Position numbers and translations under genes: made by a program. From assembly GCF_001458415.1 (NCBI RefSeq), contig NZ_CYSD01000012.1:310001-374000 (forward strand): a stretch of DNA of 64,000 nt, read 5' to 3'. The DNA is from Tritonibacter multivorans (lineage in GTDB: Bacteria; Pseudomonadota; Alphaproteobacteria; Rhodobacterales; Rhodobacteraceae). This document shows, one piece after another, positions 23,718 to 44,867 of this stretch. How positions within the stretch are numbered: position 1 is the first letter of the stretch; the number at the start of each line of letters is the position of its first letter. The notes under the pieces were generated by a model. It did no database searches, was not told the DNA's origin, and saw only the letters and a program-made list of their open reading frames with translations.

Positions 23718-26700
23718 TCAGCTTGACACGTAGCCCGACACCACCTGCAGCAGCTTGAAGGCTGTGTGGGCATCGTTTTCAACCACGGCGAGGAACTCTT
23801 CCTCACCAATCCGCAGACAGGTCAGCGGGGTTTCGGCCACCAGCGACAACGCGCGGGGTTCCTTGCGGATCAACCCCAGTTCCCCCACCAGCGCACCGGG
23901 CCCAACCGTGACCACCTGATGCCCCCGCGAGGGTTTTTCGCCCTCTGCGACAGATGCGGTCGTGGGCTGATACAGCCCCGCTTCGCCTTCCAGGATCAGA
24001 TACACACCATCGGTTGCCGGGTCGCCCTTGTGGAACACGGTGGTGTCGGTCTCTGCCTCGTACCAGCGCGCGCCAAAGGCCAGCAGACGCAGCTGACGGC
24101 GGTTGAGGCTGGAAAACAGCGCCGTGCTTTCCAACGCTCGCAGCTTGCGCGACAGATCGGCCGAGGCGGCGCTGTCTTCGCTGGTTGTGCTCTCTTCGGC
24201 GCGTTCACTGCGCAAACGCCCGTGGCGCAGCTCAAAGAAGCTGTCGAAACTGTCAGGATCGACAAATTCCGCCTGCAGGAAAATCACCGTGGCATCTGGC
24301 AGAAGCGCCCGCAGGTTTTCCCGCATCGCCGCGCGGGTGTCGGCGTCAAAACTCGACAGAGCTTCGTCGAGGATCAAAATATCCGGCGTTTTGATCGTGG
24401 CGCGGCAGAAGGCCAAGGGTTCGGCAAAGCTCGCCCCCAATCCTTGCCCGCCAACGGACACCGGCAGGTCAAAGATCAGTTCGACCACCCAATCGCCCAG
24501 CCCCGCCTCGAGGATCACATCGCCCACCAGCTTGCGCAGGTCCTCGCCGCGCGCGCCCGCCATATCGGACACGCGGCCAAAGATGGCGTTTTCCAGCACG
24601 GTAAAGCCGGGGGCAAAACGCGCATCATCCAGCGGCACAAACAGATCGCCCAGGGTCGCCAGCAGCTCGCGCCCATGCGAAGCCCGCAAGGACAGAATGC
24701 GCGTTTCCATTTCCTCGGTGAAGGCGGGGCCAATGGCCTCGGCCGAGATCGAGAACGGCACAATCATCATCTGCGCCAGTTCGCGCGGGGTCAGGCTGGC
24801 CGCCCCATGCGACGACAGTTTTTGCACAAGGCTCAGTGTTGCCTCGTAATCCGCGGCCCGCAGACCCAGCTTCTGAAACAGCGGATGCGTGGTGCCATCC
24901 ATGCCAAAGATCTGGCGCAGCATCTCGACCACTTCCTGGGCCAGTCCCAGAAGGTCACGGTCCAACCCAATGCGGCGCAATGTCTCGAGGAACTCTTCCT
25001 GTTCGGCCAGATGTTCAAACGTGATCGGCTCGCGACGGGTGGCATACAGCAGGTTTTCCGCCACCGGCAGGGACGGGTTATACCGATCCGGCGCGTTGAA
25101 ATGCACAAACCCGTCAAACCCCGCAAGCTCCAGCGCCTGGTGCACCTTGGGGCGCAGCCCCACCAGCGCCTCGGCCAGACGGGGATGGTCCAGCGCATCA
25201 AAGCTCAGCTCTGTGCCGCGGCGGAACAGGGTCGTCTGCGACCCGATCCCATCAACCAGCTTCAGCCACCACGCGCGCAACTCGTCCTTGTGGTCAAACC
25301 CAGCCAGTTCCGGCGCCACCCAGTCCACCCCAAAGGGATCGGGGCTGTTGCCTGCGCGAATGGCCTTTTGCTGCGCCAGCGGATCACCGCATTCTTCGCG
25401 CGGCTCCAGCCGCAAGGGCATCAGCACGTTTTCCCCAAAGGATCCCTGAAACAGCACCGGGCGCGAGGTCGCAAGCCCCATCCGTGCCGCCAGAACCGTC
25501 TGATGCAGGCTTCGGATATCATGTCCGGCAAGGCTCAGCTGCCCGCTCGAGGGCAGCACCTCGCGGGTCAGCACCTCGGCCAGCGCCCGCCTGTCTTCTT
25601 CTGATGGGGCCAGAATGCCAATCATCTGACCGCCGGGGAAGGTCGCCGTCAGATCCTCCAGCACAAGATTGCCATCCGCATCCCGCACATTGACACCGGC
25701 CAGCGCGATATCGCCTTTCAGACGGGTGTCGCGATCCGGCTCCCCGCTCATCAACGCCTCATCGACCATGCCCGGCGGGGCAAACCGTTCCAGGATCACC
25801 TCCCAGCGCAGCGACATATCCTGCGTCTGGTTGTAATAGGCCAGCAGCTCTTTCCACGGCGAGGCCAGATCCTTATACGCCGCCAGCGCTGCCACCAGCG
25901 CCCCCAGCGACACCTTGCCCTGCAGCACCAGATAGCCGCCCACCGCATAGAAAAAGAACGGCGTCAGCTGGGTAATGAAGTTGTTGAGAAACTTCATGAA
26001 GAACTTTTTCTGGTAGATCTCGAACCGAATGTCATAGAGATGCCCCAGACGATCCGTGACCCGCGCCATACGATAGCGCCAGCCGCCATTGACCCGCAGG
26101 GTCGACGCCCCAGCCGCGCTTTCGCCAATCTCGGAGGCCAGCGCGCGCACCTGTTTGATCCGCTTTTTGTTCAACTGGTTGATCTGCCGCTGCAACAGCG
26201 GGATCAACCAGCCCTGCAAGGGGATCAGCGCCACCGCCGCCAGACCAAACCAGACGTTCTGGGCAAAGAGGAAATACAGAATGGTCAGCATCTGACCCGC
26301 CTGCAGCACAGGCTGCGATACGGCATCGCCCATCAGCCCGCCCATGGGTTCGCTTTCGGCGGTGACCATCGACACCAGCTCGCCCTGGCTCACACGTTCG
26401 AAATAGGGCTGCGGGAAACGCAGCACCCGCGCGATCAACTGATAGCGGAACCGGCGCAGCATCCGTTCGGCCAGCACACCTTTCATCGTGTTGATGCGCA
26501 TCTTGGTCAGGCCATGCGCCAGCACGGCCAGCAGGAATCCCCCGCACAGCGCCCACAGATAGGTCAGCTGCGGCACCTGATAGCCAAAGACATCAATCAC
26601 ATCGCTTTGCGCCCCAATGGCGTCATTGATGATGCGCTTGGGCAGTTCCAGCGTCAGATACAAAAGAGGAAAAAGACAGGCGGTGACCGCCAGCAGCACC

Positions 26701-26753
26701 AGCTGGTCACGGCGAGAGTATTTCCAAATGAATTGGAACAGCGAGCGTTCTAT
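23718..26753 (-). CDS. ABC-type membrane protein with degenerate nucleotide-binding motifs and C-terminal cNMP-binding domain
   Basis: About 1011 residues. The N-terminal exporter-type membrane domain has several helices. The nucleotide-binding domain is abnormal: the Walker A position reads GILAPSEEDRRAL with no GKS/T, about 350 residues are inserted, and the signature region is SVGGQGLGASFAEPLAFCRA. Walker B ILILDEALSSFD is intact. A CAP_ED domain follows (TTVFHKGDPATDGVYLILEGEAGLYQ, GALVGELGLI). Coding-like sequence extends upstream of a GTG at 26697-26699 to ATA at 26751-26753 (IERSLFQFIWKYSRRDQ), which has GGAG seven bases before it. I take ATA as the probable start, or a mutated ATG. 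A CRP-type palindrome lies 133 bases upstream. Confidence 0.8.
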   Translation of the reverse strand: MERSLFQFIWKYSRRDQLVLLAVTACLFPLLYLTLELPKRIINDAIGAQSDVIDVFGYQVPQLTYLWALCGGFLLAVLAHGLTKMRINTMKGVLAERMLRRFRYQLIARVLRFPQPYFERVSQGELVSMVTAESEPMGGLMGDAVSQPVLQAGQMLTILYFLFAQNVWFGLAAVALIPLQGWLIPLLQRQINQLNKKRIKQVRALASEIGESAAGASTLRVNGGWRYRMARVTDRLGHLYDIRFEIYQKKFFMKFLNNFITQLTPFFFYAVGGYLVLQGKVSLGALVAALAAYKDLASPWKELLAYYNQTQDMSLRWEVILERFAPPGMVDEALMSGEPDRDTRLKGDIALAGVNVRDADGNLVLEDLTATFPGGQMIGILAPSEEDRRALAEVLTREVLPSSGQLSLAGHDIRSLHQTVLAARMGLATSRPVLFQGSFGENVLMPLRLEPREECGDPLAQQKAIRAGNSPDPFGVDWVAPELAGFDHKDELRAWWLKLVDGIGSQTTLFRRGTELSFDALDHPRLAEALVGLRPKVHQALELAGFDGFVHFNAPDRYNPSLPVAENLLYATRREPITFEHLAEQEEFLETLRRIGLDRDLLGLAQEVVEMLRQIFGMDGTTHPLFQKLGLRAADYEATLSLVQKLSSHGAASLTPRELAQMMIVPFSISAEAIGPAFTEEMETRILSLRASHGRELLATLGDLFVPLDDARFAPGFTVLENAIFGRVSDMAGARGEDLRKLVGDVILEAGLGDWVVELIFDLPVSVGGQGLGASFAEPLAFCRATIKTPDILILDEALSSFDADTRAAMRENLRALLPDATVIFLQAEFVDPDSFDSFFELRHGRLRSERAEESTTSEDSAASADLSRKLRALESTALFSSLNRRQLRLLAFGARWYEAETDTTVFHKGDPATDGVYLILEGEAGLYQPTTASVAEGEKPSRGHQVVTVGPGALVGELGLIRKEPRALSLVAETPLTCLRIGEEEFLAVVENDAHTAFKLLQVVSGYVSS

Positions 26754-26885
26754 GGGTTTGCTCCAGATCGGCCAGAGTTTTTTAGTCTTCCCTGCCTAGC
26801 GCGGCCTGCGCGGCCAAGCAATGGCTGGTAGCGGCAGCATTATCTTTAGGTGTCTCCACTATCACCCACCGTCACATAATGACTC

Positions 26886-26901
26886 TGTGACCTAGCTCAC
26901 A
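26886..26901. promoter_or_regulatory. Perfect CRP-type palindrome TGTGA-N6-TCACA
   Basis: TGTGACCTAGCTCACA matches the CRP consensus halves exactly. An overlapping pair GTCACA-N9-TGTGAC (26871-26891) adds a second dyad. It lies between the divergent ABC/cNMP gene and the DUF3307 gene. The rest of the 26754-27008 gap holds no ORF. Confidence 0.55.
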
Positions 26902-27008: not shown

Positions 27009-27413
27009 GTGCCAGAACATGTGGCTGCCGTGCTGCTTCTGATCTTCCTCCTGGAAGCGAAACACATGTTTGCGGATTTCTATCTGCAAACCGCCAAGAT
27101 GCTTGCCGGACGGTGCAGCTATCTCCATTGGGGGCGGGCCCAGCACGCCGCCGTACATGCGGTGGGCTCGGTGCTTGTCTATTTTTTCATCGGCCTGCTG
27201 TTTGGCTGTCCGCTCTGGGTGATGTTCCTGATCCCGGCGCTCGAATGGGTGGTGCATTACCACATCGACTACTGGAAGGGCTGGCACACCCATTGCAAAC
27301 AGCTCGACCCGTCACAGGGCGCCTTCTGGCGCGCGGTGGGCTTTGACCAGTTTCTGCACCACGTGACCTACATTGGCATGGCCGGGCTTTGGGCCACGGG
27401 ATTTGCCCAATAA
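27009..27413 (+). CDS. DUF3307-family membrane protein
   Basis: A 134-residue protein with several hydrophobic helices. Conserved features are LEAKHMFADFYLQT, HAAVHAVGS and ALEWVVHYHIDYWKG, typical of DUF3307 integral membrane proteins of unknown function. The start is GTG at 27009-27011 after a strong AAAGGAG site. It converges on the methyltransferase-like gene 30 bases away. Confidence 0.8.
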   Translation: MPEHVAAVLLLIFLLEAKHMFADFYLQTAKMLAGRCSYLHWGRAQHAAVHAVGSVLVYFFIGLLFGCPLWVMFLIPALEWVVHYHIDYWKGWHTHCKQLDPSQGAFWRAVGFDQFLHHVTYIGMAGLWATGFAQ

Positions 27414-27443: not shown

Positions 27444-27932
27444 TCAGCGGCGATAGACAAAACAGCGCCCTTTGACCGCGCCTGCGGGCAATGGCATCTC
27501 GTCCAGCGCGTCAAAATACATCCGGTCTGACGACACCATGATCCCGCCCGGCGCCAGCAGCGGCTCCACCAATGGCGAGATCAGCCGCGCAAAAGCATCG
27601 TTCTTTTCCAGATTATGCCCGCCAAGATCCGCGTGGATCAGGCTTGCCGTGGCCCCAAACCGGTCCAGCGCCTGCGGCAGGGTCTCTTGCACGTCGCCCA
27701 GCACCGTCAGATGATCTGCCGGGATGCTGTCAGGATGCGCTTCTACCGACCGGTCAAAGACATAGACATCCCGTCCGGTGATCCGTTCGCGCATATGGTG
27801 AAACGTGCGCCCGTTGCCCAGACCCAGTTCGAACACCGGGCCGTCCATCGCGTCGGTCTCTGCAATGGCAAAGTCGATGCAGGCCCGCTGCGACACCATG
27901 CGGTCGATGAAAAGGTCCAGTCGTGTCACCAT
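27444..27932 (-). CDS. Class I SAM-methyltransferase-like protein (paralogue 1)
   Basis: A 162-residue single-domain protein with the nucleotide-binding loop FELGLGNGRTFHHMRE, an acidic YVFDRSV strand end, and LLAPGGIMVSSD. It is clearly related to the protein at 44391-44867 (same GLGNGRT(F/Y) loop, length and ending ...F(V/F)YR). The loop deviates from GxGxG, and catalytic activity is unproven. Substrate unknown. Confidence 0.7.
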   Translation of the reverse strand: MVTRLDLFIDRMVSQRACIDFAIAETDAMDGPVFELGLGNGRTFHHMRERITGRDVYVFDRSVEAHPDSIPADHLTVLGDVQETLPQALDRFGATASLIHADLGGHNLEKNDAFARLISPLVEPLLAPGGIMVSSDRMYFDALDEMPLPAGAVKGRCFVYRR

Positions 27933-28164: not shown

Positions 28165-29961
28165 ATGCAGCCACTTTTGTCGGTCGAAAACCTCTCGATC
28201 GGTTTTGGGAAATCCGAACCGGTTGTCAGAGATGTGAACTTCTCGGTTTCCGCCGGGGAGACATTGGCGCTGGTCGGGGAAAGCGGATCGGGCAAGACAA
28301 TCTCTTGCCGCGCCCTGTTGCAGATCCTGCCGCGTGCGGCCCAGATCCGCTCGGGGCGGATGCTGTTCAACCCCAATGGCGATCCCGTTGACCTTGCCAC
28401 GCTGAGCAGCCGCAAGCTGCGCCATATTCGCGGCAACCGCATTGCGATGATCTTTCAGGAACCCATGCGGTCGCTGTCGCCGCTGCATAAGATCGGCAAT
28501 CAGGTGGCCGAGGCGCTGAAACTGCATGGCCGGATTTCGGACAGCGACGCCAAGCGCCGCGTGCTGGAGCAATTCGAACGCGTCGGCTTCCCCAATCCCG
28601 ACCGCACCTGGCGGTCCTATCCCTTTGAACTCTCTGGCGGAATGCGTCAGCGCGCGATGATCGCCATGGCCATGGTGGCCAAGCCCGACCTGCTGATCGC
28701 CGACGAACCGACAACCGCGCTGGATGTGACCACACAGGCGCAGGTGCTGGGGCTGATGAAAGAGCTGCAGCAGGAAACCGGCATGGCGATGATCCTCGTC
28801 ACCCATGATCTGGGCGTTGTGGCCAATATGGCCGAACAGGTCGTGGTCATGCACAAAGGCCGGGTGATGGAGGCAGGCCCCGCCGCCCCGATCCTGCGCG
28901 CCCCCGCACACCCCTATACGCAGAAACTGTTCCACGCCGCGCCCAAGATCCCCGATCCGGTGGCCCAGGACCGCCCCGTGGAACGGGATCTGATCCTTGA
29001 AATGCGCGATGTGGCCAAGACCTTTACCATGCGCGCAGGCAAGGCCTGGGCCGCACCACAGAAGGTGCAGGCCTGTGCCGGGCTCGACTTTTCCCTCCCG
29101 CGCGGCAAGACACTGGCGATCGTTGGCGAAAGTGGCTCGGGCAAAACCACCGCCGCCCGCATCGCCCTGGGGGCCGAGGCCCCGGACGCAGGTGGGCAGG
29201 TTCTGTTCCGCCCCACGCCCGATGCCACCCCGGTGGCCGTCCACCGCATGGACCGCAAACAACGCCGCGCCTTCCAGCGCGAGGCGCAGATGGTATTCCA
29301 GGACCCCTACTCCTCGCTCAGCCCGCGTATGCGCATCCTTGATACGCTCAGCGAACCTTTGGAAATTCACGACATTGGCGGCGCTTCTGAACGCCGGGAC
29401 CGCGCGGGTGAGATGCTGAAGATGGTTGGCCTGCCAACGGACATGCTGTTGCGGTTTCCACATGCGTTTTCGGGCGGCCAGCGCCAGCGCCTGTCGATTG
29501 CCCGCGCACTGATGCTGAACCCCAGCCTGCTGATCTGTGACGAACCCACCTCGGCGCTGGATGTGTCGGTGCAGGACCAGATCCTGAGCCTTCTGGAAGA
29601 CATCCGCGACGCGCAGAACCTGTCGTATTTGTTCATCAGCCACGACCTCGCCGTGGTGGCGCGCATCGCCGATGAGGTTGCAGTGATGCGCCGCGGGCTG
29701 GTTGTGGAACAAGCGCCTCCAGAAGAGCTTTTCCATAATCCCAATCATCCCTATACGAAGGCGCTGATTGCCGCCCAGCCGACGCCGGACGTCAATCGCC
29801 CGATTAATCTCAAGCTTGTGGCCCAGGGGGCCGGCAGCCCAGAGCACTGGCCGGAACAATTCCGGTTCAAAGGCTCGGATGCGCCGCCCCTCGTGGCCAT
29901 GAGCCCCGACAAAGGATCTGAGGCCACGGCCTCAGGACATAAGGTGCGCTGCCATGTTTGA
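28165..29961 (+). CDS. Peptide/opine-type ABC transporter, dual ATPase
   Basis: A 598-residue fusion of two ABC ATPase domains (DppD-DppF or YejF type). The first has Walker A GESGSGKT, signature [11 protein letters not shown] and Walker [13 protein letters not shown]. The second has [22 protein letters not shown] and [12 protein letters not shown]. Both are complete. It powers the two permeases downstream. The 3' end overlaps the binding-protein start by eight bases. A possible 11-codon leader precedes it. Confidence 0.95.
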
Positions 29962-31870
29962 TGCCCCCCGTTCCCTACTTGCCCTCGCTGCGACCTGCAT
30001 GCTCGCCCCACTGACCGCCCTTGCAGGCCCAACCCTGCAGGAAAGCGAATTCTGGAAAGCCGAAGTTGACCTGGGCCACCTGCCTGCCATTGGCGACCGC
30101 CTGCCAGAGGTGCCGCTGGTTGTGGATCTGGAAACCAAGGGTCGCACGCTGGGGGTTCAGGGCGGCACGCTCAACACCATGGTCACCCGCTCCAAGGACA
30201 TCCGTCAGATGGTGGTCTATGGCTATGCCCGCCTCGTTGGGTTCAATGAAAACTACGAACTGGTGCCGGATATTCTGGAAAGCTTCGAGGAAGAGGCCAA
30301 CCGCAAGTTCACCCTGCGCCTGCGCCCCGGCCACAAATGGTCCAATGGCGATGCCTTCACCTCGGCTGACTTTGAATACTGGTGGAAACACATCGCCAAC
30401 AATGACCAGCTGACCCCGACCGGCCCCGATGATTTCCTGCGCATCCATGGGGAGTTGCCACAGGTCAGCTTCCCGGACGCCACAACCGTTGTCTTCGAAT
30501 GGTCCCAGCCCAATCCGAACTTCCTGCAAACGCTGGCGCAGGCCGTGCCGCCGTTTATCTACCGCCCGTCGAACTATCTGAAACAGTTCCATCAGGATTT
30601 TGCTTCGGCCGCTGATCTGCAGGGCGAAATCGACTATGCCCGCGTCAAAAGCTGGGCCGCGCTGCACAACAAACGGGACAATATGTCGAAGTTCGACAAT
30701 CCCGACCTGCCAACGCTGCAGCCCTGGATCAATGCCACCGCCGGCAAGAAGATCCGCCACCAGTTTGTCCGCAACCCCTACTACCATCGCATCGACAGCA
30801 ATGGCGTGCAGCTTCCCTATATCGACACCGTCGAGATGGAGATTGTCGCCGGTGGTCTGGTCGCCGCAAAATCCAACGCAGGCGAGGCCGAGTTGCAGGC
30901 GCGCGGTCTTGATTTCCGCGACATTCCGATCCTGCGCAAAGGCGAGGCCGCGGGCGATTACCGCACCCAGCTGTGGTCCAATGGCACAGCCTCGCAGATC
31001 GCGATCTATCCAAACCTGAACACCGCCGACCCGGTCTGGCGCGACCTGTTCCGCGACGTCCGCGTGCGCCGCGCGCTGTCGGTTGCGATCAACCGCGCGG
31101 CCATCAACAAATCGCTCTATTTCAAACTGGCCAAGCCCGGCGCCATGACGGTGCTGGAACAAAGCCCCTTCTTCGACCAGTCCCTGCGCGACGCCTGGGC
31201 GCAATATGACCCAGCGATGGCCAATAAACTGCTGGACGAAGCAGGGCTGGCCGAAAAAGACGGCTATGGCATTCGCAAACTGCCCGACGGCCGCCCGATG
31301 GAGCTGGTGATTGAAACCGCAGGCGAACGCCAAGAGGTTGAAAACGCGTTGCAAATCATCACCGACGACTGGCGCGACGTGGGGGTAAAACTGATCATGC
31401 GCCCCTTGGATCGGGACATTATGCGCAACCGCGTGTTCTCGGGGTCGTCGATGGCGTCGGTGTGGTTCGGCTGGGACAATGGCCTGCCGCAGTCCTATAC
31501 CTCGCCGATCTACCTCGCGCCGACCGATCAGGTGTTTTATTCGTGGCCCAAGTGGGGCCAGCATTACCAGACCGGCGGTCTGGCAGGCGAAGCGCCTGAT
31601 CTGGTGCCCGCCATGCGTCTGATGGAGCTGCTGGAAGAGTGGAACAATGCCACAGACGCCAATGGCCGCGCCGCCGCCTGGCGCGAGATGCTGAAGATCC
31701 ATGCCGAAAATGTCTTTGCCATTGGCATTGTGGCCGGCGCGCCGCAGCCGGTGGTGGTTTCGCACAAGCTGCGCAATGTGCCGGAAAAAGGCATCTGGGC
31801 CTGGGATCCCGGCGCCCATTTCGGCGTCCATCGCCCGGATGAATTTTACTTCGAAGGTGGCGACGGCTAA
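29954..31870 (+). CDS. Family 5 extracellular solute-binding protein
   Basis: A 638-residue periplasmic protein with a signal peptide (LLALAATCMLAPLTALA). The SBP_bac_5 features are GGTLNTMV, LRLRPGHKWSNGDAFTSADFEYWW and a DPxxANKLLDEAGL-type segment. It is longer than most peptide-binding proteins. The ligand cannot be read from sequence; oligopeptides, opines or sugar-amino acid conjugates are possible. It is coupled to the ATPase upstream and the permease downstream. Confidence 0.93.
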   Translation: MFDAPRSLLALAATCMLAPLTALAGPTLQESEFWKAEVDLGHLPAIGDRLPEVPLVVDLETKGRTLGVQGGTLNTMVTRSKDIRQMVVYGYARLVGFNENYELVPDILESFEEEANRKFTLRLRPGHKWSNGDAFTSADFEYWWKHIANNDQLTPTGPDDFLRIHGELPQVSFPDATTVVFEWSQPNPNFLQTLAQAVPPFIYRPSNYLKQFHQDFASAADLQGEIDYARVKSWAALHNKRDNMSKFDNPDLPTLQPWINATAGKKIRHQFVRNPYYHRIDSNGVQLPYIDTVEMEIVAGGLVAAKSNAGEAELQARGLDFRDIPILRKGEAAGDYRTQLWSNGTASQIAIYPNLNTADPVWRDLFRDVRVRRALSVAINRAAINKSLYFKLAKPGAMTVLEQSPFFDQSLRDAWAQYDPAMANKLLDEAGLAEKDGYGIRKLPDGRPMELVIETAGERQEVENALQIITDDWRDVGVKLIMRPLDRDIMRNRVFSGSSMASVWFGWDNGLPQSYTSPIYLAPTDQVFYSWPKWGQHYQTGGLAGEAPDLVPAMRLMELLEEWNNATDANGRAAAWREMLKIHAENVFAIGIVAGAPQPVVVSHKLRNVPEKGIWAWDPGAHFGVHRPDEFYFEGGDG

Positions 31871-32898
31871 TGGAAATTCTGCGCTACGCGATCTACCGCT
31901 TTGGCACCATGCTGCTGACGCTCCTTGTGGTGTCAGTGCTGATCTTCTGGATCATCAACCTGCCACCGGGGGACTATCTGTCCAACCAGATCGCCGAATT
32001 CCGCGCTTCGGGTCAGGAAAGCCTTGTCGCCAAGGCTGAATTTCTGCGGCAGGAATATGCGCTCGATAAACCGCTGTGGCAGCAATATCTGATCTGGATG
32101 GGCTTCCTGCCCGGCCCGCACGGGTTTTCCGGCATGCTGCAGGGCAATTTCGGCTGGTCGTTTGAGTTTGACCGCCCCGTAAGTGAAATCGTCGGCGACA
32201 GCCTGTGGCTGACGGTTCTGGTGAACCTCGCGGCGGTGCTGTTTGTCTATATGGTGGCCCTGCCCCTTGGTGTGATCGCCGCGGCCAAGTCGCGCACCAT
32301 GATCGACTATACGGCTGCCTTCATTGGCTATCTGGGCCTTGCCACGCCGAACTTCCTGCTGGCGCTGATCCTGTTTTACTATGGCAATAAACACCTTGGC
32401 CTGCCCATTGGCGGCCTCATGGCGCCGGAATATGAAGGCATGCCGATGAGCTGGGACAAGGTGAAATCCATCCTGCTGCATCTGATCGTGCCGACCTTTG
32501 TCATCGGCACCTCTGGGGCCTCGGCAATGATGCAGCGGCTGCGCGCCAATATGCTGGATGAGCTGGGCAAGCCTTACGTCGAAACCGCCGTGGCCAAGGG
32601 CATGCGCCCCAGCCGGATGCTGGCGAAATACCCGCTGCGGGTGGCCTTCAACCCCTTTGTCGCTGACATCGGCAACCTGCTGCCATCGATGGTGTCGGGG
32701 TCGGTTCTGGTCTCGGTCGTTCTGGGGTTGCAGACCATTGGCCCGGTGCTGTTGCAGGCACTGAAAAGCCAGGACATGTTCCTGTCGGGCTTTGTTTTGA
32801 TGTTCGTCGCCCTGCTCACGCTGATCGGCACCATGATTTCCGATGTGCTTCTGGTCCTTCTGGACCCGCGCATCCGCTATGAGGGGCGCGACGGATGA
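31870..32898 (+). CDS. ABC transporter permease (DppB-like)
   Basis: A 342-residue inner-membrane permease beginning YAIYRFGTMLLTLLVVSVLIFWIINLPPGD. It has the family-typical coupling-helix region MDELGKPYVETAVAKGMRPSRML, which contacts the ATPase. Start and previous stop share a base (TAATG). It forms the membrane channel with the next gene product. Confidence 0.94.
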   Translation: MEILRYAIYRFGTMLLTLLVVSVLIFWIINLPPGDYLSNQIAEFRASGQESLVAKAEFLRQEYALDKPLWQQYLIWMGFLPGPHGFSGMLQGNFGWSFEFDRPVSEIVGDSLWLTVLVNLAAVLFVYMVALPLGVIAAAKSRTMIDYTAAFIGYLGLATPNFLLALILFYYGNKHLGLPIGGLMAPEYEGMPMSWDKVKSILLHLIVPTFVIGTSGASAMMQRLRANMLDELGKPYVETAVAKGMRPSRMLAKYPLRVAFNPFVADIGNLLPSMVSGSVLVSVVLGLQTIGPVLLQALKSQDMFLSGFVLMFVALLTLIGTMISDVLLVLLDPRIRYEGRDG

Positions 32899-34043
32899 CC
32901 CAAGACAACCGCTACGTCGATGACGCCCCCTTTGACGCCGACGCTTCGCTGCGCGAGGTGGAGCGCAAGGATCTCGACGCGCCCAATTGGCTGCTGGTGT
33001 GGCGCAAGTTCCGCACCCACAAGCTGGGGCTGATTTCCGGCATCTTCCTGCTGTTCTGCTATCTGATGCTGCCCTTTGTGGGCTTTGTCGCGCCTTACGG
33101 GCCAAACGAACGCGACGCCGAACATCTGTTCACCCCACCGCAAAGCATCCATCTGTTCCACGAGGGTGAATTCCTCGGCCCGTTCATTTATCCGCTGACA
33201 TCCGAGGCGGATATGGAGACGTTTCAGTGGATCGTGAAACCGGATCTTGAGACCCCCAAGCAGATCGAGTTTTTCTGCGAAGGCAGCAAATACCACATCG
33301 CGGGGCTGATCCCGTCGCGCACACATCTGTTCTGTGCCCCCGATGGGGCGACCCTGTTCCTCTGGGGGTCTGACCGCCTTGGGCGCGATATCTTCTCGCG
33401 TATTCTGTACGGCGCGCAGCTGTCGCTGACGGTGGGCCTGATCGGCATCACCGTGTCCTTTGTGCTGGGTATTTTCTTTGGCTCTGTTGCAGGCTATTTC
33501 GGCGGGCGCATCGACTGGGTCATCAACCGGGTGATCGAGGTGCTGCGGTCGCTGCCGGAACTGCCGCTGTGGCTGGCGCTGTCGGCAGCGGTGCCGTCGA
33601 ACTGGTCGCCGGTGGCGGTGTTTTTCATCATCTCCATTATCCTCGGCATTCTGGATTGGCCGGGGCTGGCGCGATCCGTGCGCGCCAAGTTTCTGTCCCT
33701 GCGCGAGGAAGAATACGTCCGCGCCGCGGAAATGATGGGGGCGTCCTCGGGGCGAGTGATCCGCAAGCACCTGTTGCCGAACTTCATGAGCCACCTCATT
33801 GCCTCGGCCACGCTGTCGATCCCGGCGATGATTTTGGGCGAAACCGCGCTGTCGTTCCTTGGGCTGGGGCTGCGCGCGCCTGCGGTCAGTTGGGGGGTGA
33901 TGCTGAACGACGCGCAGAACCTTGCCAGCATTGAGATCTACCCGTGGACTGCAATTCCGATGCTGCCTATCATCGTGATTGTTTTAGCCTTTAATTTCTT
34001 AGGCGACGGGCTGCGCGACAGTCTGGACCCCTACCAGCAATAG
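32895..34043 (+). CDS. ABC transporter permease (DppC-like)
   Basis: A 382-residue second permease with an N-terminal OppC-type helix, a long periplasmic loop (residues about 70-155), then the core helices. The coupling segment is LREEEYVRAAEMMGASSGRVIRK. The ATGA overlap with the upstream gene indicates coupling. The loop is larger than in typical DppC, as in YejE-like permeases. Confidence 0.93.
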   Translation: MTQDNRYVDDAPFDADASLREVERKDLDAPNWLLVWRKFRTHKLGLISGIFLLFCYLMLPFVGFVAPYGPNERDAEHLFTPPQSIHLFHEGEFLGPFIYPLTSEADMETFQWIVKPDLETPKQIEFFCEGSKYHIAGLIPSRTHLFCAPDGATLFLWGSDRLGRDIFSRILYGAQLSLTVGLIGITVSFVLGIFFGSVAGYFGGRIDWVINRVIEVLRSLPELPLWLALSAAVPSNWSPVAVFFIISIILGILDWPGLARSVRAKFLSLREEEYVRAAEMMGASSGRVIRKHLLPNFMSHLIASATLSIPAMILGETALSFLGLGLRAPAVSWGVMLNDAQNLASIEIYPWTAIPMLPIIVIVLAFNFLGDGLRDSLDPYQQ

Positions 34044-38284: not shown

Positions 38285-39526
38285 ATGCCCGACATGCCAA
38301 AGTCCGATATGCCGCAAGCCAACGCCGCCAGCAGCCCCATCAAACGGGGCGCACGGATCCTGTTTTACAGCCATGACACCTTTGGCCTTGGCCACCTGCG
38401 TCGCTCGCGGGCGCTGGCCGGGGCGATCACGGCAGCGGATCCTTCGGCCTCGGCGATGATCCTCACCGGCTCTCCGGTGGCGGGGCGCTTTGCCTTTCCG
38501 ACCCGCGTCGACCACATGCGCCTGCCCGGTGTGATCAAACGCGCCGATGGCTCTTATGCCTCGCGCACCATGGGGATGAGCATTGAGGAAACCACCGAAA
38601 TGCGCGCCGGGCTGATCCGCTCCACCGCCGAACAGTTCGACCCCGATGTGCTGGTTGTCGACAAGGAACCCACCGGGTTCCGCGGCGAGCTGCTGCCGAC
38701 GCTTGATATGCTGCAGGAACGCGGCAAGGCACAGCTGGTGCTGGGCCTGCGCGATGTGCTGGATGAACCCGAGGTGCTGCGCGCCGAATGGGACCGCAAA
38801 TGGGCGCTGGATGCGGCCGAACGCTATTATCACGAGATCTGGGTCTATGGCCTGCGCAGCATCTATGACCCGACGCAGGGCTTGGATCTGTCGGAAGATG
38901 CGCAGGCGCGCATGCATTGGACCGGCTACCTGCGCCGCGATCTGGGCGAGGTCGGCGCGCCGCCGGAACAGCCCTATGTGCTGATCACCCCCGGGGGCGG
39001 CGGCGATGGCGCAATGATGGTGGATCTTGTCCTGTCCGCTTACGAACGTGACCCCACCCTCGCGCCGCGCGCGGTGCTGGTCTACGGCCCCTTCCTGTCC
39101 GGCGACACCCGCGCCGCCTTTGAGGAACGCGTCGCCCGCCTTGAAGGCCGCGTCACCGCCGTTGGCTTTGAGTCCGAAATCGAAACCCTGTTTGCAGGCG
39201 CGCAGGGCGTCGTCTGCATGGGCGGGTACAATACCTTCTGCGAGGTTCTGTCCTTTGACAAACCCGCCGTGATCGTGCCCCGCACCACGCCGCGTCTGGA
39301 GCAGTGGATCCGTGCCAGCCGCGCCGAAGAGCTCGGCCTTGTGACCATGCTGGACGAGACCCGCGACGGCTGGACACCCGAAGCCATGGTGCGCGCCATT
39401 CGTGCATTGGAAAAACAGCCCGCGCCCTCGACCGCAATTCGGAACGGCCTGCTGGATGGGCTCGAATATGTGACCGAACGGATCTCTGCCCTGCTGGCAA
39501 ATCAATCCCGGAAAGCTGCGGAATGA
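38285..39526 (+). CDS. MurG-like (COG4671-type) glycosyltransferase, first gene of glycan operon
   Basis: A 413-residue GT-B fold protein. Seen are ILFYSHDTFGLGHLRRSRALAGAI near residue 25 (the GHL acceptor loop), LITPGGGGDG mid-protein and VVCMGGYNTFCEVLSFDKPAVIVP (donor site). It resembles the protein at 42481-43617. ATG at 38285. The stop overlaps the next start (ATGA), and seven genes follow the same pattern to 44867. Donor and acceptor unknown. Confidence 0.85.
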   Translation: MPDMPKSDMPQANAASSPIKRGARILFYSHDTFGLGHLRRSRALAGAITAADPSASAMILTGSPVAGRFAFPTRVDHMRLPGVIKRADGSYASRTMGMSIEETTEMRAGLIRSTAEQFDPDVLVVDKEPTGFRGELLPTLDMLQERGKAQLVLGLRDVLDEPEVLRAEWDRKWALDAAERYYHEIWVYGLRSIYDPTQGLDLSEDAQARMHWTGYLRRDLGEVGAPPEQPYVLITPGGGGDGAMMVDLVLSAYERDPTLAPRAVLVYGPFLSGDTRAAFEERVARLEGRVTAVGFESEIETLFAGAQGVVCMGGYNTFCEVLSFDKPAVIVPRTTPRLEQWIRASRAEELGLVTMLDETRDGWTPEAMVRAIRALEKQPAPSTAIRNGLLDGLEYVTERISALLANQSRKAAE

Positions 39527-40776
39527 CACGTCCCACTCTTGCCGTCCTGGTCAAGGGCTGGCCCCGCCTGTCCGAAACCTTCATTGCGCAGGAACTGGTC
39601 GCGCTCGAAGCTGCGGGCCAAGAATTTGAAATCTGGTCCCTGCGCCATCCCACCGACAAGAAACGTCACCCCCTGCACGACCGTCTGCAGGCGCGGGTGA
39701 ACTACCTGCCGGAATACCTGTATCAGGAACAGGACCGTGTGGCCGCCGCCCGTGACGCTGCCCGCGCCCTTCCCGGATATGGCGCGGCCTATAAAATCTG
39801 GCGCGAGGACCTGAAACGCGACCCGACCCACAACCGCATCCGCCGCTTTGGGCAAGCCTGCGTACTGGCGGCGGAAGCCCCGGCCGAGGTTCTGGGGCTT
39901 TATTCCCATTTTCTGCACACGCCGTCCTCCGTTGCGCGCTATGCCGCGATCATGCGCGGTCTACCGTGGAGCTTTTCAGCCCACGCCAAGGACATCTACA
40001 CCTCCCCCGAGTGGGAGCTGCGCGAAAAGCTGGCGACCCGCAGCCATGGCGCGGTCTTTGGGGCCACCTGCACCGCGTTCAATGCCGAACATCTGCGCAG
40101 CCTGTCGGATGGGACGCCGGTGGATCTGGTCTACCACGGGCTGGATCTCAGCCGGTTCCCGGAACCGCCGACCCGCAGCTTGCGTGCCCCGGATGCCCCG
40201 TTTCAGATGATGTCCGTCGGCCGACTGGTCGAGAAAAAGGGCTTTGACCGGCTGATCGCCGCCTTCGCCCAGCTGCCTGCCGATCTGGACTGGCACTGGA
40301 CCCATATTGGCGGCGGCGGGTTGAAAGACCTGCTTGAAGGTATAGCCGAAGATCACGGCGTCGCAGACCGCATCACCTGGCGCGGGGCTTGCGACCAGCC
40401 TGAGGTGATTGACGCCATGCGCGCCGCCGATCTGTTTGTGCTGCCCTCGCGCATTGCCGAAGACGGCGACCGCGACGGTCTGCCCAATGTGCTGATGGAG
40501 GCCGCCTCCCAAGGGTTGCCGATCCTGTCGACGCCTGTCTCTGCGATCCCCGAATTCATCACCAGCGGCACCCACGGTCTCCTGTCGGAAGACGCGCCCG
40601 AGGCGCTGGCCGCGGCCCTGACCCAAATGGCCCGCGACCCCGCAGGCTGCCGCACCATGGCCGATGCCGCCTTGGCCCGTCTGCGGGCGGAATTCCGCAT
40701 GGACCCCGGCATTGCCCGGCTGGATCAACTGCTGCGCCAGATGCTCGACAGCGCCAGCCATCCCGTCCCCGCATGA
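39523..40776 (+). CDS. GT4-family glycosyltransferase
   Basis: A 417-residue protein starting LAVLVKGWPRLSETFIAQEL, typical of GT4 enzymes in exopolysaccharide loci. The C-terminal donor domain has MMSVGRLVEKKGFDRLI, a glycine-rich HIGGGGLKDLL and GDRDGLPNVLMEAASQGLPILST, with the E-x7-E region. It is cytosolic or membrane-peripheral, with no membrane helix. ATGA-coupled on both sides. Confidence 0.92.
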   Translation: MTRPTLAVLVKGWPRLSETFIAQELVALEAAGQEFEIWSLRHPTDKKRHPLHDRLQARVNYLPEYLYQEQDRVAAARDAARALPGYGAAYKIWREDLKRDPTHNRIRRFGQACVLAAEAPAEVLGLYSHFLHTPSSVARYAAIMRGLPWSFSAHAKDIYTSPEWELREKLATRSHGAVFGATCTAFNAEHLRSLSDGTPVDLVYHGLDLSRFPEPPTRSLRAPDAPFQMMSVGRLVEKKGFDRLIAAFAQLPADLDWHWTHIGGGGLKDLLEGIAEDHGVADRITWRGACDQPEVIDAMRAADLFVLPSRIAEDGDRDGLPNVLMEAASQGLPILSTPVSAIPEFITSGTHGLLSEDAPEALAAALTQMARDPAGCRTMADAALARLRAEFRMDPGIARLDQLLRQMLDSASHPVPA

Positions 40777-41885
40777 GGCGCGGCGCAGGCCATAAGATCG
40801 GCTTTTACGCGCCCATGAAATCACCGAACCATCCGGTGCCCTCGGGTGATCGCGAGATGGCGCGGAACCTGATTGCCCTGCTTGAGGGCGAAGGGGCCGA
40901 GGTCACGCTGACCTCAGAACTTCGCAGCCACGAGAAACAGGGCGCACTTTCGCGCCAGTCGCAGCTGCGCGCCGAGGCCGAAGCTGACGTTGCGCGCCTT
41001 TTGGCAGAGCTGCCCGAGATTTCCCTTTGGGTGACCTATCACAATTACTACAAAGCACCGGATCTGATCGGCCCGCGTGTCGCCGCCGCCCGTGGCATCC
41101 CTTATGTGCAAGTGGAAAGCACCCGCGCCAAGAAACGGCTTTCTGGTCCCTGGGCGGGCTTTGCCGAGGCCGCGCATCAGGCCGCCGATGCGGCGGATGT
41201 GATTTTCTACCTGACCGAACAGGACCATTTTGCCCTGAACCGCGACCGGGCGCCGAACCAGAAACTGGTGCATCTGCCCCCCTTTCTGCCACAAGACACC
41301 CTGCCGCCCGCCAGCACGCTGGACGGCCCCATGCTGGCGGTCGGCATGATGCGCGGCGGTGATAAACTGGCCTCGTATCGTCTTATTGCCGCGGCACTGG
41401 CGTGCCTCGACAGCCGGGGGCGGGCGGGCGACTGGCGGCTCTGTGTGGCGGGCGACGGCCCCGCCCGCGCCGAGGTGGAGGCGCTGTTTGCCCCCTTTGG
41501 CGCGCATGTGGACCTGCTGGGGCAATTGGACCGCGACGCGCTTGCGGCGGCCTATGGGCAGGCATCGCTGTTCCTCTGGCCCGGCGTGAACGAGGCCTTT
41601 GGCATGGTCTATCTGGAAGCGCAGGCCCATGGGCTGCCCGTGGTGGCACAGGACCGCCCCGGCCTGCGTGATGTGCTGGCGCCCAGCGCTCTGCCGCGCC
41701 CGGACAAAAGCCAAGGCGCCTTTGCCATGACCCAAGTGATGGAGCATCTGCTGACCACGCCCGAGGCGCGTCACAGCGACGGTGCAGCCGCCCGCGATCA
41801 CATCGCCGCCCGCCACCTTGCGCCTGCCGCCCGGGACCGGCTGTGGTCCGCGCTCGCGCCGCTCCTGCCCCCAGAGGCCCCGTAA
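40773..41885 (+). CDS. GT4-family glycosyltransferase
   Basis: A 370-residue protein. N-terminus IGFYAPMKSPNHPVPSGDREMARNL; C-terminal donor site with AGDGPARAEVEALF and ASLFLWPGVNEAFGMVYLEAQAHGLPVVA (E-x7-E signature). The unusual N-terminal SPNHPVPSGDR loop is shared by related family members. It is ATGA-coupled upstream and shares one base with the next gene (TAATG). Confidence 0.9.
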   Translation: MRRGAGHKIGFYAPMKSPNHPVPSGDREMARNLIALLEGEGAEVTLTSELRSHEKQGALSRQSQLRAEAEADVARLLAELPEISLWVTYHNYYKAPDLIGPRVAAARGIPYVQVESTRAKKRLSGPWAGFAEAAHQAADAADVIFYLTEQDHFALNRDRAPNQKLVHLPPFLPQDTLPPASTLDGPMLAVGMMRGGDKLASYRLIAAALACLDSRGRAGDWRLCVAGDGPARAEVEALFAPFGAHVDLLGQLDRDALAAAYGQASLFLWPGVNEAFGMVYLEAQAHGLPVVAQDRPGLRDVLAPSALPRPDKSQGAFAMTQVMEHLLTTPEARHSDGAAARDHIAARHLAPAARDRLWSALAPLLPPEAP

Positions 41886-42484
41886 TGCCGCACACCCCGA
41901 TCAAACTGGCCCTGCTGCGCCACGGGCATACCGCCTGGAACCGCGAACACCGCATTCAGGGGCGCAGCGATATCCCGCTGGACGATCAGGCCCGCGCCGA
42001 TCTGCGCAGCCTGTCACTGCCCGCCCCCTGGGATCAGGCCGACCTCTGGTCCAGCCCGCTGACCCGCGCCTCTGAGACCGCTGAACTAATCGCCGGGCGC
42101 AGGCCCAAAACAAGCCCCGCCCTGACCGAGATGAACTGGGGTGACTGGGAAGGCCAGCACGGCGCCCCCCTGCGCGCCGACCCCAGCAGCGGCTTTCGCG
42201 ATATTGAGAACTGGGGCTGGAACTACCGCCCGCCCAACGGCGAACCCCCGGCCGAGGTCTGGGCCCGGTTGTCTCCCTGGCTTGACGCCCTCACCGAAGA
42301 TACCGTCGCCGTCTGCCACATCGGCGTCATGCGCATGATCCTTGCCCGCGCCTATGGCTGGAACTTCGACGGCCCCGCCCCCTTTGCCATCAAACGCAAC
42401 CGCCTGTTTGTCGTGGACCTCTCTGCCGATGGGCTCACCCCCTGGCCCGACCCCATCCGCCTGCCAAAGGAAGACACCCCATGA
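41885..42484 (+). CDS. Histidine phosphatase (phosphoglycerate mutase-like)
   Basis: A 199-residue histidine phosphatase with catalytic motif LLRHGHTAWNREH, SSPLTRASETAE, a Glu in EMNWGDWEGQH and the second His in AVCHIGVMRMI. In a glycan operon it might dephosphorylate a sugar or lipid intermediate. A general phosphatase role cannot be excluded. The start shares a base with the previous stop; the end overlaps the next ATG. Confidence 0.9.
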   Translation: MPHTPIKLALLRHGHTAWNREHRIQGRSDIPLDDQARADLRSLSLPAPWDQADLWSSPLTRASETAELIAGRRPKTSPALTEMNWGDWEGQHGAPLRADPSSGFRDIENWGWNYRPPNGEPPAEVWARLSPWLDALTEDTVAVCHIGVMRMILARAYGWNFDGPAPFAIKRNRLFVVDLSADGLTPWPDPIRLPKEDTP

Positions 42485-43617
42485 AGGTCTTGATTGTTGT
42501 CACCCATCTTCTGGGCACCGGGCATCTGTCGCGGGGCCTGACCCTGGGCCGTGCCTTCGCGCAGGCCGGTCATCAGGTCACGCTGGCCTCGGGTGGGTTT
42601 CCTGCGCCGCAGCTGAACACCGATGGGGTAGAGCTGGTGCAGCTACCACCCTTGCGATCCGACGGCGTGGACTTCTCGCGGCTTTTGACTGCGGAAGGCA
42701 CCGTCGCGGATCAGGACTATCTGACCCACCGTCAAAGCGCGCTGCTAGGCCTGCTGGATCAGATCCAGCCGGACGTGCTGCTGACCGAACTGTTCCCCTT
42801 TGGCCGCCGCTCCCTGCGGGCAGAGTTCCGCGCCCTGCTTGAGGCCGCCCATGCCCTGCCCAAGCGCCCGCTGATCCTGTCGTCGATCCGCGACATCCTT
42901 GCCCCGCCCTCCAAGCCCAAGAAAGCCGAACAGGCCGAGGCACTGATAAGCCAGTTCTACGACGGCGTTCTGGTCCATTCGGATCCTGCGACCACCACGC
43001 TGGACGCCAGCTGGCCGGTGACGCCTGCGCTGGCTGAAAAGCTGATCTACACCGGCTATGTCGCGCCCCCAGCCGCGATCCCCCATCCCGACAACCTCGG
43101 CGCGGGCGAAATCCTCGTCAGCGCGGGGGGGGGTGATGTGGGCGATGCACTCTTTGCCTGCGCCATTGAAGCCGCCAAGCAGATGCCCGACCACCGCGTC
43201 CGTCTGCTGGTGGGAGGCCGCGACGCGCAGGCGCGGATTGCGCGGCTGGCGGATCCGAGCTCGCCCGCCGTTCTGGAACCCGCCCGCCCCGATTTCCGCC
43301 AGATGCTGCCCCATGCTGCGGCCTCTGTCAGCATGTGCGGCTACAACACCGCGCTGGATCTGCTGCAGGCGGGCACGCCGTCGGTCTTTGTCCCCTTTGA
43401 TGCGGGCAATGAGGTGGAACAGGGTCTGCGCGCCCGCAGTCTCGCCGAACTGCCGGGATTTGTCGTGTCCCCCGCCGCTGCGCTCACGCCGGACCGCCTG
43501 TGCGAGGCCATCACCTCAGCTATGCGTCAGCCGCAACGCGACGTCCACAACTTCAGGTTTGACGGCGCGACCCAAAGCGTGGAGATTGCAGAAAAACGAA
43601 TGAAGGACCGCCAATGA
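42481..43617 (+). CDS. MurG-like glycosyltransferase (second in operon)
   Basis: A 378-residue GT-B fold protein. Seen are VLIVVTHLLGTGHLSRGLTLGRAF, ILVSAGGGDVGDALF and VSMCGYNTALDLLQAGTPSVFVPFDAGNEVEQ. It is a paralogue of the first operon gene in the GHL and GYNT motifs, though clearly diverged. Coupled by ATGA on both sides. It probably acts in the same pathway with a different donor or acceptor. Confidence 0.87.
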   Translation: MKVLIVVTHLLGTGHLSRGLTLGRAFAQAGHQVTLASGGFPAPQLNTDGVELVQLPPLRSDGVDFSRLLTAEGTVADQDYLTHRQSALLGLLDQIQPDVLLTELFPFGRRSLRAEFRALLEAAHALPKRPLILSSIRDILAPPSKPKKAEQAEALISQFYDGVLVHSDPATTTLDASWPVTPALAEKLIYTGYVAPPAAIPHPDNLGAGEILVSAGGGDVGDALFACAIEAAKQMPDHRVRLLVGGRDAQARIARLADPSSPAVLEPARPDFRQMLPHAAASVSMCGYNTALDLLQAGTPSVFVPFDAGNEVEQGLRARSLAELPGFVVSPAAALTPDRLCEAITSAMRQPQRDVHNFRFDGATQSVEIAEKRMKDRQ

Positions 43618-44378
43618 CTGCCGATTGGTCTCCCCTCGACCGCGAATTGCAAATGTGGCAGCAGCAGGGACTGCACCTGCCGCTGTGGTGGCGCGATGAT
43701 GACGCCACCGAACCAAGCGAAGCCCTTGGCCGCCTGGACGCCATGGCCCGTCAGTTTGATCTGCCGGTGCATCTGGCGGTGATCCCAAAATCGGCCGCCC
43801 CGTCGCTGGTGGACGCCGTGGGCGCCTCGGCGCATCTGCTGCCGGTTGTGCATGGCTGGGCCCATAAGAACCACGCTCCCAAAGACCAGAAGAAAGCCGA
43901 ATTTGGCGCCTCGCGCCCTGTCGAAGACGCCCTCTCCGAGGCAGAAGCCGGTCTCACACAGCTGCGCGAGATGTTTGGCGACGCCCTTCTGCCGCTGTTT
44001 GTACCGCCCTGGAACCGGGTCTCGGCAGATCTGCTGCCGTGGATGGCCGGCGCAGGCTTTGGCGCGATTTCAACCTATGGGCCACGGAAAACACGGCTCG
44101 CCGCGCCGGGGCTGGAACAGGTCAACACCCATGTCGACCCGATCGACTGGCACGGCAGCCGCAGCCTGCTGTCGCTGGACGGGCTGGTGGCCCGGATCAC
44201 GGACCAGCTGGCCGACCGCCGCGAAGGCCGCAGCGACCGGCTGGAGCCCTTTGGCCTCCTGACCCACCATCTGGCCCATGACACGGCGATCTGGGGGTTC
44301 TGCGAAACCCTCATCGACAAGCTCCTGAGCGGCCCCGCCCGCCCCTGGCACTACGACGCCCGTATTCCGCACACCTAA
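43614..44378 (+). CDS. Polysaccharide deacetylase-like protein
   Basis: A 254-residue NodB-type barrel protein. Seen are LPLWWRDDDATEPSEAL (the Asp-Asp of the metal site), VVHGWAHKNHAP (the His-x-x-x-His metal ligands), LFVPPWNRVSADLL and a terminal LLTHHLAHD. No signal peptide, so it works in the cytosol or this is not a classical secreted deacetylase. It likely removes an acetyl group from the glycan made by the flanking transferases. Confidence 0.85.
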   Translation: MTADWSPLDRELQMWQQQGLHLPLWWRDDDATEPSEALGRLDAMARQFDLPVHLAVIPKSAAPSLVDAVGASAHLLPVVHGWAHKNHAPKDQKKAEFGASRPVEDALSEAEAGLTQLREMFGDALLPLFVPPWNRVSADLLPWMAGAGFGAISTYGPRKTRLAAPGLEQVNTHVDPIDWHGSRSLLSLDGLVARITDQLADRREGRSDRLEPFGLLTHHLAHDTAIWGFCETLIDKLLSGPARPWHYDARIPHT

Positions 44379-44390
44379 GGACATCCCCAC

Positions 44391-44867
44391 ATGAGCCGTC
44401 TCGATTCCATGCTTCGCCGCCTCACCGCCCAACGCGACGGGCTCAATTGGGCCGCCGAGCAGACCGCCGATCTGGCGGGCGACGCGCTCGATATGGGGCT
44501 TGGCAATGGGCGCACCTATGACCACCTGCGCGAACTCCTGCCGCAGCGCCGCATCTGGGTGATCGACCGCCAGCTGCAATGCCACCCCTCCTGCGTGCCG
44601 CCAGAACAGGACTTCCTGCAGGGCGAAGCCGAAGACATGCTGAACCGGCTGTCAGACATGAATCGCCCGGTCGTGATGGCGCACTATGACTTTGGCTTTG
44701 GGGTCAAAGAAAAAGACGTGGCCGAAGCCGCCCGCCTGTCGCCGATGATCGCACAGGTCATGGCCCCCGGCGGTGTGATCGTCTCGGGTCAGCCGCTGGT
44801 CGGGTTTCAGGATCTGGACGGGCCCGCCGGCATTCCCGAAGGGCGCTATTTCTTCTACCGCGCCTAA
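44391..44867 (+). CDS. Class I SAM-methyltransferase-like protein (paralogue 2)
   Basis: A 158-residue protein with loop LDMGLGNGRTYDHLREL, WVIDRQL and VMAPGGVIVSG. It is a paralogue of 27444-27932. It ends the glycan operon, 12 bases after the deacetylase, and is followed by a terminator. A glycan methylation role is plausible from context only. Confidence 0.72.
   Translation: MSRLDSMLRRLTAQRDGLNWAAEQTADLAGDALDMGLGNGRTYDHLRELLPQRRIWVIDRQLQCHPSCVPPEQDFLQGEAEDMLNRLSDMNRPVVMAHYDFGFGVKEKDVAEAARLSPMIAQVMAPGGVIVSGQPLVGFQDLDGPAGIPEGRYFFYRA

Follow-up and report, generated by a model that had tools for sequence, protein, structure and literature searches.

We analysed a 64,000-nucleotide stretch of the Tritonibacter multivorans genome (RefSeq assembly GCF_001458415.1, contig NZ_CYSD01000012.1, positions 310,001 to 374,000 of the forward strand; hereafter the window), in which a minus-strand gene (23721..26753, stop codon to 23718) encodes a protein of 1011 residues that resembles an ATP-binding cassette (ABC) exporter. 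The protein belongs to a pseudo-ABC family conserved in Alphaproteobacteria, of which it is the roseobacter form, and, with a probability of roughly 0.4, we propose that it acts as a non-hydrolytic, cyclic-nucleotide-controlled flippase or translocator of glycans. Loss of the ATPase motifs, conservation of a cyclic nucleotide monophosphate (cNMP) cassette, linkage to glycan genes and a member reduced to the membrane domain can be read from the sequences themselves, and from these we infer the mechanism. A first-pass annotation, made from the letters of the window alone, had described an ABC protein that may not pump by ATP hydrolysis and could be a channel, sensor or pseudo-transporter; this interpretation is partly supported, and the gene context points to a possible role in glycan export or flipping.

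An exporter-like protein that lacks the ATPase motifs

The minus-strand open frame (26795..23718) contains no internal stop, and all features of the gene given below lie on the same strand. Pfam assigned residues 54-290 to ABC_membrane (PF00664, 7e-19) and Foldseek matched the membrane domain to P-glycoprotein (P-gp) and TmrAB, in line with the exporter-type transmembrane domain (type IV, ABCB-like; residues 1-330, 25764..26753) recognised in the first pass. It is followed by the first half of a nucleotide-binding domain (NBD; residues 345-450, 25404..25721, defined by Pfam and a model of the NBD alone), an insertion of ~250 residues between Q-loop and signature (residues ~451-700, 24654..25403; alignment and models), a second NBD half with a degenerate signature (residues 701-850, 24204..24653; alignment and NBD model) and a CAP_ED region (residues 862-1011, 23721..24170), in which Pfam detected cNMP_binding (PF00027, residues 901-994, 2e-14, 53.8 bits against a cut-off of 27.5). 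ABC_tran reached only 0.002 and 19 bits over residues 366-460, under its cut-off of 25. The Pfam scan of the protein (E up to 1) contained no C39 or other peptidase family, and the best 25 of 91 matches to NCBIfam equivalogs (MsbA and others) were all far under the curated cut-offs.

Orthologues were taken as the best 80 of 323 relatives in a species-level genome collection, 62-77% identical over the best segment. The resulting alignment held 80 sequences, the window protein and 79 orthologues, after removal of L056, whose frame is interrupted, and of L081, identical to the window. None of the 80 carries GxxxxGK[ST]. At the former Walker A (residues 377-395, MIGILAPSEEDRRALAEVL, 25569..25625; alignment), D387 and R388 stand in place of the P-loop Gly-Lys and are invariant (80/80), E385 and E386 occur in 76 and 77 sequences, position 382 is Ala in 79 and position 389 is Arg in 73. 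The missing P-loop lysine of the first-pass annotation is therefore a conserved property of the group; a local frameshift or assembly error is ruled out by the agreement of 80 sequences, and since mere decay would not fix residues in this way, the site appears to be under selection. The NBD part has a mean column identity of 71% (43 sequences), and over codons 2-60 the first and second positions are strongly constrained relative to the third.

The Walker B motif (residues 791-805, DILILDEALSSFDAD, 24339..24383; alignment) had been called intact, which holds for D796-E797 of the window protein but not for its orthologues: of the 80 sequences, 49 have Asp and 30 have Glu at position 796, and position 797, the place of the catalytic glutamate, is mostly Ser, Asn or Gln. 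The signature had rightly been seen as changed, with LGASFAEP at this position in the window protein and LSxAQRQK in many relatives, but in the family alignment the apparent GGQ lies in the stretch preceding the signature. A paralogue from the same genome (51% identical) likewise lacks Walker A. Judged from these motifs, canonical ATP hydrolysis by the protein's own NBD is very unlikely, as the first pass had suspected.

A conserved pseudo-ABC family in Alphaproteobacteria

Searching 385 alphaproteobacterial genomes for relatives at E < 1e-60 revealed the family in 129 of them. A query with a split-form member found matches (E < 1e-50) in 32 of 398 genomes of the phylum, 31 of which belong to the same class; the one exception comes from a 3-kb contig and consists of a frame with the membrane domain only. 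For a census, 120 loci were fetched from part of the genome matches, of which 112 hold a protein of >780 residues and, together with the window, give 113 members. The eight loci without such a protein are L165-L171 and L259, a distant locus with no long frame. Five divergent members (L172-L176) are counted among the 113 and were dropped from the tree, repeat and membrane-domain tests (108 members). All five keep the inserted NBD and have lost the Walker A lysine, and in three of these listed divergent proteins (L173, L174 and L176) the match spans the NBD half only.

LSGGQ is found in none of the 113 members and GxxxxGK[ST] in five, so that loss of a normal Walker A extends to most of the wider family. 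The Walker B aspartate is replaced by Asn or Ser in 79 members, and an acidic residue (Asp or Glu) occupies the Walker A Ser/Thr place in 82. When a tree was built with the Walker A columns removed and rooted at its midpoint, at least 16 changes between Lys and other residues were counted at position 388. Many distant members comprise ~900 residues and end where CAP_ED begins in the window protein, and are followed by a separate CAP_ED gene of ~160 residues; overall, the 112 loci include 12 with a fused and 68 with an adjacent CAP_ED. Because the 13 fused proteins, window included, form a single clade (support 0.97), the fusion probably happened once. Public records among those listed mostly name these proteins 'ABC transporter ATP-binding protein' or 'ABC transporter transmembrane domain-containing protein'. 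We found no description of the family or of its glycan gene set in the open-access literature; subscription papers may hold one.

Co-occurrence with a set of glycan genes

One glycosyltransferase with a GT28-like C-terminus, encoded in the window at 38285..39526 (plus strand; marker match 38348-39487), served as a marker for co-occurrence. It is present in 127 of the 385 genomes: 123 contain both marker and family, 6 the family alone, 4 the marker alone and 252 neither (Fisher p ~2e-87, ignoring kinship of the genomes). This phyletic pattern indicates that the pseudo-ABC gene belongs to a multi-gene glycan system, of which the interval singled out in the first pass covers the membrane component only. 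Within the fetched stretches, at least two glycosyltransferases of the set lie beside 75 of the 112 loci, accompanied by a histidine phosphatase in 64 and a deacetylase-like protein in 42 of these; the glycosyltransferase queries cross-match, and the four types are not cleanly separated in such counts. At 70 of the 75 loci, the family gene and the marker transferase are on opposite strands, and at 55 the transferase is upstream and divergent.

Members without a nucleotide-binding domain

Six fetched proteins of 360-425 residues (L165-L169 and L171) consist of the membrane domain only; L170 is cut by a contig end and was not counted. The frame at L171 (L171:2197-3276) ends mid-contig and adjoins glycosyltransferases of the glycan set, and a ZapA-like gene, recognised by eye, comes next after it. 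Searching the L171 genome (91% complete, 200 contigs) with the family NBD returned 24 short matches only, at 23-35% identity with the best at 1e-15 and 35%, which we took for ordinary ABC proteins. Several residues of the membrane domain (Pro38, Lys39, Glu96, Glu133, Arg198, Arg203, Pro265 and Pro299 among them) recur in 91-100% of the 108 full-length members and in all six membrane-domain-only proteins. These membrane-domain-only members, one of them beside glycan genes, are our best clue that the domain may work without an ATPase. We considered E133 and E135 as proton-coupling residues and dropped them, since these positions are presumably acidic in ordinary exporters as well. Some neighbours of L165, L166, L167 and L169 appear, by eye, to be copper- or metal-related.

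The cyclic-nucleotide domain and its possible ligand

The CAP_ED domain of the first-pass annotation is borne out by its phosphate-binding cassette (residues 956-970, 23844..23888), in which E958 and R967, a pair that we take to be the cNMP-cassette motif, are present in 80/80 sequences. Among the 68 adjacent CAP_ED proteins of the split form, 57 show Glu and Arg by a simple pattern, four differ and seven miss the pattern; three of the five printed from these seven read GETAI...PR. The paralogue from the same genome carries Asp in place of the cassette Glu. The cyclic-nucleotide site thus looks intact in the window protein, and its ligand may be cyclic AMP (cAMP) or cyclic GMP (cGMP). A nucleotide-cyclase gene lies close to the family locus in R. 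etli CFN42 and in Phyllobacterium, and the genome of the window itself yields eight class III cyclase matches. DUF3095, cyclase-like by a motif and under our own label, was rejected as a member of the system: it occurs in 26 of the 385 genomes, 20 of which have the family, and is thus enriched, yet missing in most family genomes. In the T. multivorans genome, the DUF3095 gene (G000:C37:496700-497812) is ~18 kb away from the paralogue, not from the pseudo-ABC gene of the window.

The insertion contains Q-loop-like segments

The large insertion noted in the first pass is real and holds two Q-loop-like segments (copy 2, residues 543-575, 25029..25127; copy 3, residues 698-731, 24561..24662), in addition to the Q-loop itself (copy 1, residues 421-448, 25410..25493). 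Profiles of the three segments were built from, and run against, the same 108 members (per-domain E < 0.1). The profile of residues 698-731 matched the 543-575 place in 108/108 and the true Q-loop in 17, that of residues 543-575 had matches at the third place in 105 members and at the Q-loop in 17, and the Q-loop profile hit 80 members at the second place and nine at the third. Profile-profile comparisons gave probabilities of 94, 94 and 99%, the first two over just 18-22 columns. By these measures segments 2 and 3 are clearly alike, while their resemblance to the Q-loop is weaker but present, and the Q-loop with the start of the helical subdomain seems to be repeated twice more within the insertion, with helices between the copies.

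In a model of the whole protein, confidence within the insertion ranged from 63 to 94 per ten-residue block. Structure searches with this model gave TM-scores of only ~0.2-0.3 by query length, and the NBD was therefore refolded alone. The resulting AlphaFold model matched the NBDs of TAP1 and HlyB with TM-scores of ~0.6 by target length and a root-mean-square deviation of 13-15 Å across the insertion, which was poorly predicted before ~residue 515 (27-80) and well predicted in the remainder. The models suggest that the NBD fold is retained.

Probable translation from a conserved AUA or AUC codon

The probable start codon is an ATA (AUA) at 26751..26753, identified by codon conservation and a coding signature, and the gene end at 26753 given in the first pass was right. 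The count, in which the window is included, rests on 80 of 82 frames, as the anchor was missing from L066 and from the second piece of L056. The first conserved codon is ATA in 63 frames, ATC in 16 and ATG in one, and ATA accounts for 3.5% of the isoleucine codons in the same genes. No in-frame ATG, GTG or TTG lies upstream in 51/80 frames. A Shine-Dalgarno-like GGAG precedes the codon in the window (26761..26764), its G at -11 being present in 80/80 frames and that at -10 in 96%; a full GGAG occurs within 22 bases before the codon in 31/80, and at -14 to -7 in 28/80 compared to 22 of 1660 random places in genes. In codons 2-17, variation amounts to 0.47 at the third position and to 0.12 and 0.07 at the first two, and no such pattern is visible before the codon. 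From the codon-position pattern, the conservation of the codon and the spacing of the G residues in these sequences, we concluded that translation of the orthologues in all probability initiates at the conserved AUA or AUC. The annotation table of Ruegeria sp. TM1040 places the gene start 51 bases (17 codons) downstream. A known parallel is infC of E. coli, whose AUU start is controlled by IF3. Upstream, in the divergent promoter region toward a DUF3307 gene, lies a perfect CRP-like palindrome (TGTGA-N6-TCACA, 26886..26901, no strand assigned); a CRP-like box with at most one mismatch is found within 250 bases upstream in only 14 of 81 genes.

Gene neighbourhood in the window

The DUF3307 gene (27009..27413, plus strand), divergent from the pseudo-ABC gene, has a homologue in 79 of 80 orthologous loci. 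Next to it lie a Methyltransf_17 gene (27444..27932, minus strand), with homologues near 46 of the 112 family loci, and an Opp-type ABC importer (28165..34043, plus strand) comprising an ATPase, an SBP_bac_5 protein and two permeases; Methyltransf_17 and genes homologous to the importer are also found in the R. etli cluster. The importer and other genes separate the pseudo-ABC gene from the glycan set. On the plus strand, downstream of the marker glycosyltransferase, this set continues with a GT4 glycosyltransferase (39304..40776; EpsE/WcaL-like, under the cut-offs of those models, with the true start probably downstream), a GT4-type glycosyltransferase (40773..41885), a histidine phosphatase (41843..42484), a second glycosyltransferase with a GT28-like C-terminus (42481..43617) and a 254-residue protein (43614..44378) that lacks a Pfam or NCBIfam match and is labelled only by its position at the place of the deacetylase-like cluster gene. 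A second Methyltransf_17 gene (44391..44867) comes after the set, which spans 38285-44378. A phnM-like gene (44960-46102, minus strand) lies directly beyond the glycan cluster. TM1040 shows a similar arrangement on a megaplasmid, with some other genes between.

Discussion

We propose that the type IV exporter membrane domain retains its fold, next to an NBD that no longer has the residues needed to bind and hydrolyse ATP and has acquired two extra Q-loop-like segments. With CAP_ED encoded alongside, and fused in one clade, the protein would serve the same pathway as a set of processing enzymes and as many as four glycosyltransferases. The membrane domain would move or gate the glycan or glycolipid made by these enzymes, and the movement may be downhill or ion-coupled rather than driven by ATP hydrolysis in the pseudo-ABC protein. 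Binding of a cNMP could act via the dead NBD, which would pass on the signal as a rigid lever. The isolated membrane domains MsbA-MD and LmrA-MD have been reported to transport with ion gradients, which makes the idea of ATP-free transport physically reasonable. More doubtful is the extension to a whole class of ABC-exporter descendants free of ATP, namely cyclic-nucleotide-gated translocators of envelope glycans with a Q-loop-enlarged, dead NBD that some members have discarded, and with synthesis in roseobacters further limited by the AUA or AUC start.

Several observations weigh against the proposed glycan translocator. In the wider family, the Walker A lysine is retained in 62 of 113 members, followed by Asp or Glu in 45 of the 62, and the complete Lys, Ser/Thr, Asp and Glu set of Walker A and B in two, so that nucleotide binding may persist there. 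Glycan genes lie next door in 0 of the 12 fused loci of the census; they are 12-17 kb away from the fused form in the window, in G331 (~17 kb) and in TM1040, far off in G154 and on another contig in G022. In 32 of the 112 loci, no adjacent CAP_ED was found. A relative of the linked cyclase occurs near only seven of the 112 loci, which makes the linked cyclase an exception. The corresponding domain of the exporter HetC binds guanosine tetraphosphate (ppGpp) and not cAMP, and a cyclic-nucleotide ligand therefore cannot be assumed for the domain of the window protein. Finally, MsbA that retained its NBD but lacked the Walker A lysine gave no ethidium efflux in cells, in the same study in which MsbA-MD did.

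The main rivals are a purely regulatory role and a canonical partner half encoded elsewhere. As a regulator or scaffold, the protein would sense cNMP as a membrane receptor and control either the glycosyltransferases or the Opp-type importer, while transporting nothing itself. Lost catalytic motifs, a retained cNMP cassette and the tight association with enzymes would all fit this role, for which SUR1 and SUR2 are a precedent. However, many membrane-domain residues are conserved over the 108 members and the six membrane-domain-only proteins, and L171 has a membrane domain without an NBD beside glycan genes; both favour an activity of the membrane domain itself, and we consider pure regulation rather unlikely.

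The protein could also still be part of an ATP-driven exporter, contributing the degenerate site of a pair whose other half is a canonical ABC protein, an arrangement known from TM287/288 and TAP, and this possibility adds to the points that speak against our proposal. Degenerate sites are common in exporters of this kind, some of them, such as NBS1 of Pdr5, deviating in all four motifs, and the T. multivorans genome contains four other exporter-like matches (E up to 1e-5). Within the fetched stretches, however, another exporter-like frame of >400 residues was seen at only one of the 112 loci (L119), and a second frame of >450 residues with both GxxxxGK[ST] and LSGGQ at none. The paralogue in the same genome is degenerate as well, and the insertion, given its place in the NBD, could disturb pairing of the NBDs. 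We regard a canonical partner as unlikely.

Quite improbable is a noncanonical ATPase, in which the acidic Walker A residue (GK[DE]) takes over from the Walker B aspartate as metal-binding acid and the roseobacter branch represents a further loss. The Walker B Asp is indeed found in 8 of the 82 members with Asp or Glu at the Ser/Thr place versus 11 of the 31 others (kinship ignored), but position 388 is Arg in all 80 sequences of the orthologue group, with the Arg389 and Ala382 counts (73 and 79) pointing the same way, as does the absence of LSGGQ from all 113 members. A ligand-gated ion channel, as raised by the first-pass annotation and comparable to CFTR, is more improbable still: a cNMP domain is present, the ABC fold can form a channel and nothing specific speaks against one, but the gene context is glycan synthesis. 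A decaying pseudogene, suggested by motif loss, the interrupted L056 frame and the lack of a long frame at L259, is hardly credible given the codon-position constraint over codons 2-60 and the NBD column identity.

ATP-independent function of ABC exporter membrane domains is debated. The case for it has so far rested on truncated constructs of MsbA and LmrA. A family that is present in about a third of the sampled genomes, has mostly shed its ATP motifs, and in one genome the whole NBD, and has kept to one pathway provides a natural test of such function. In addition, the family connects a sensor of the cyclic-nucleotide type with a set of envelope-glycan genes found in both rhizobia and marine roseobacters, and it is a clear example of conserved AUA or AUC initiation, overlooked by annotation in the single record that was checked.

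Compared to known systems, the window protein shares the membrane-domain fold, the domain order and the NBD core fold with type IV ABC exporters such as ABCB, MsbA, TmrAB and PCAT1, and differs from them in the absence of Walker A and LSGGQ, the Q-loop-like insertion and the C-terminal CAP_ED domain. The closest studied exporter with a cyclic-nucleotide-binding domain (CNBD) that we found is HetC of Nostoc PCC 7120, which combines a CNBD, a C39 peptidase and an ABC exporter. Its exporter likewise bears a CAP_ED-type domain that is required in vivo; unlike in the window protein, this domain is N-terminal and binds ppGpp, and HetC has a peptidase domain and an essential ATPase residue. In exporters with degenerate sites (TM287/288, TAP, TmrAB, Pdr5 and the ABCC proteins), degeneration of NBD motifs is likewise kept by selection; those exporters keep a canonical second site within the complex, and none is evident for the window protein. 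In MsbA-MD and LmrA-MD, a membrane domain is reported to be active without an NBD and ion-coupled. While those two are artificial truncations, the loss of NBD motifs in the family of the window protein is natural.

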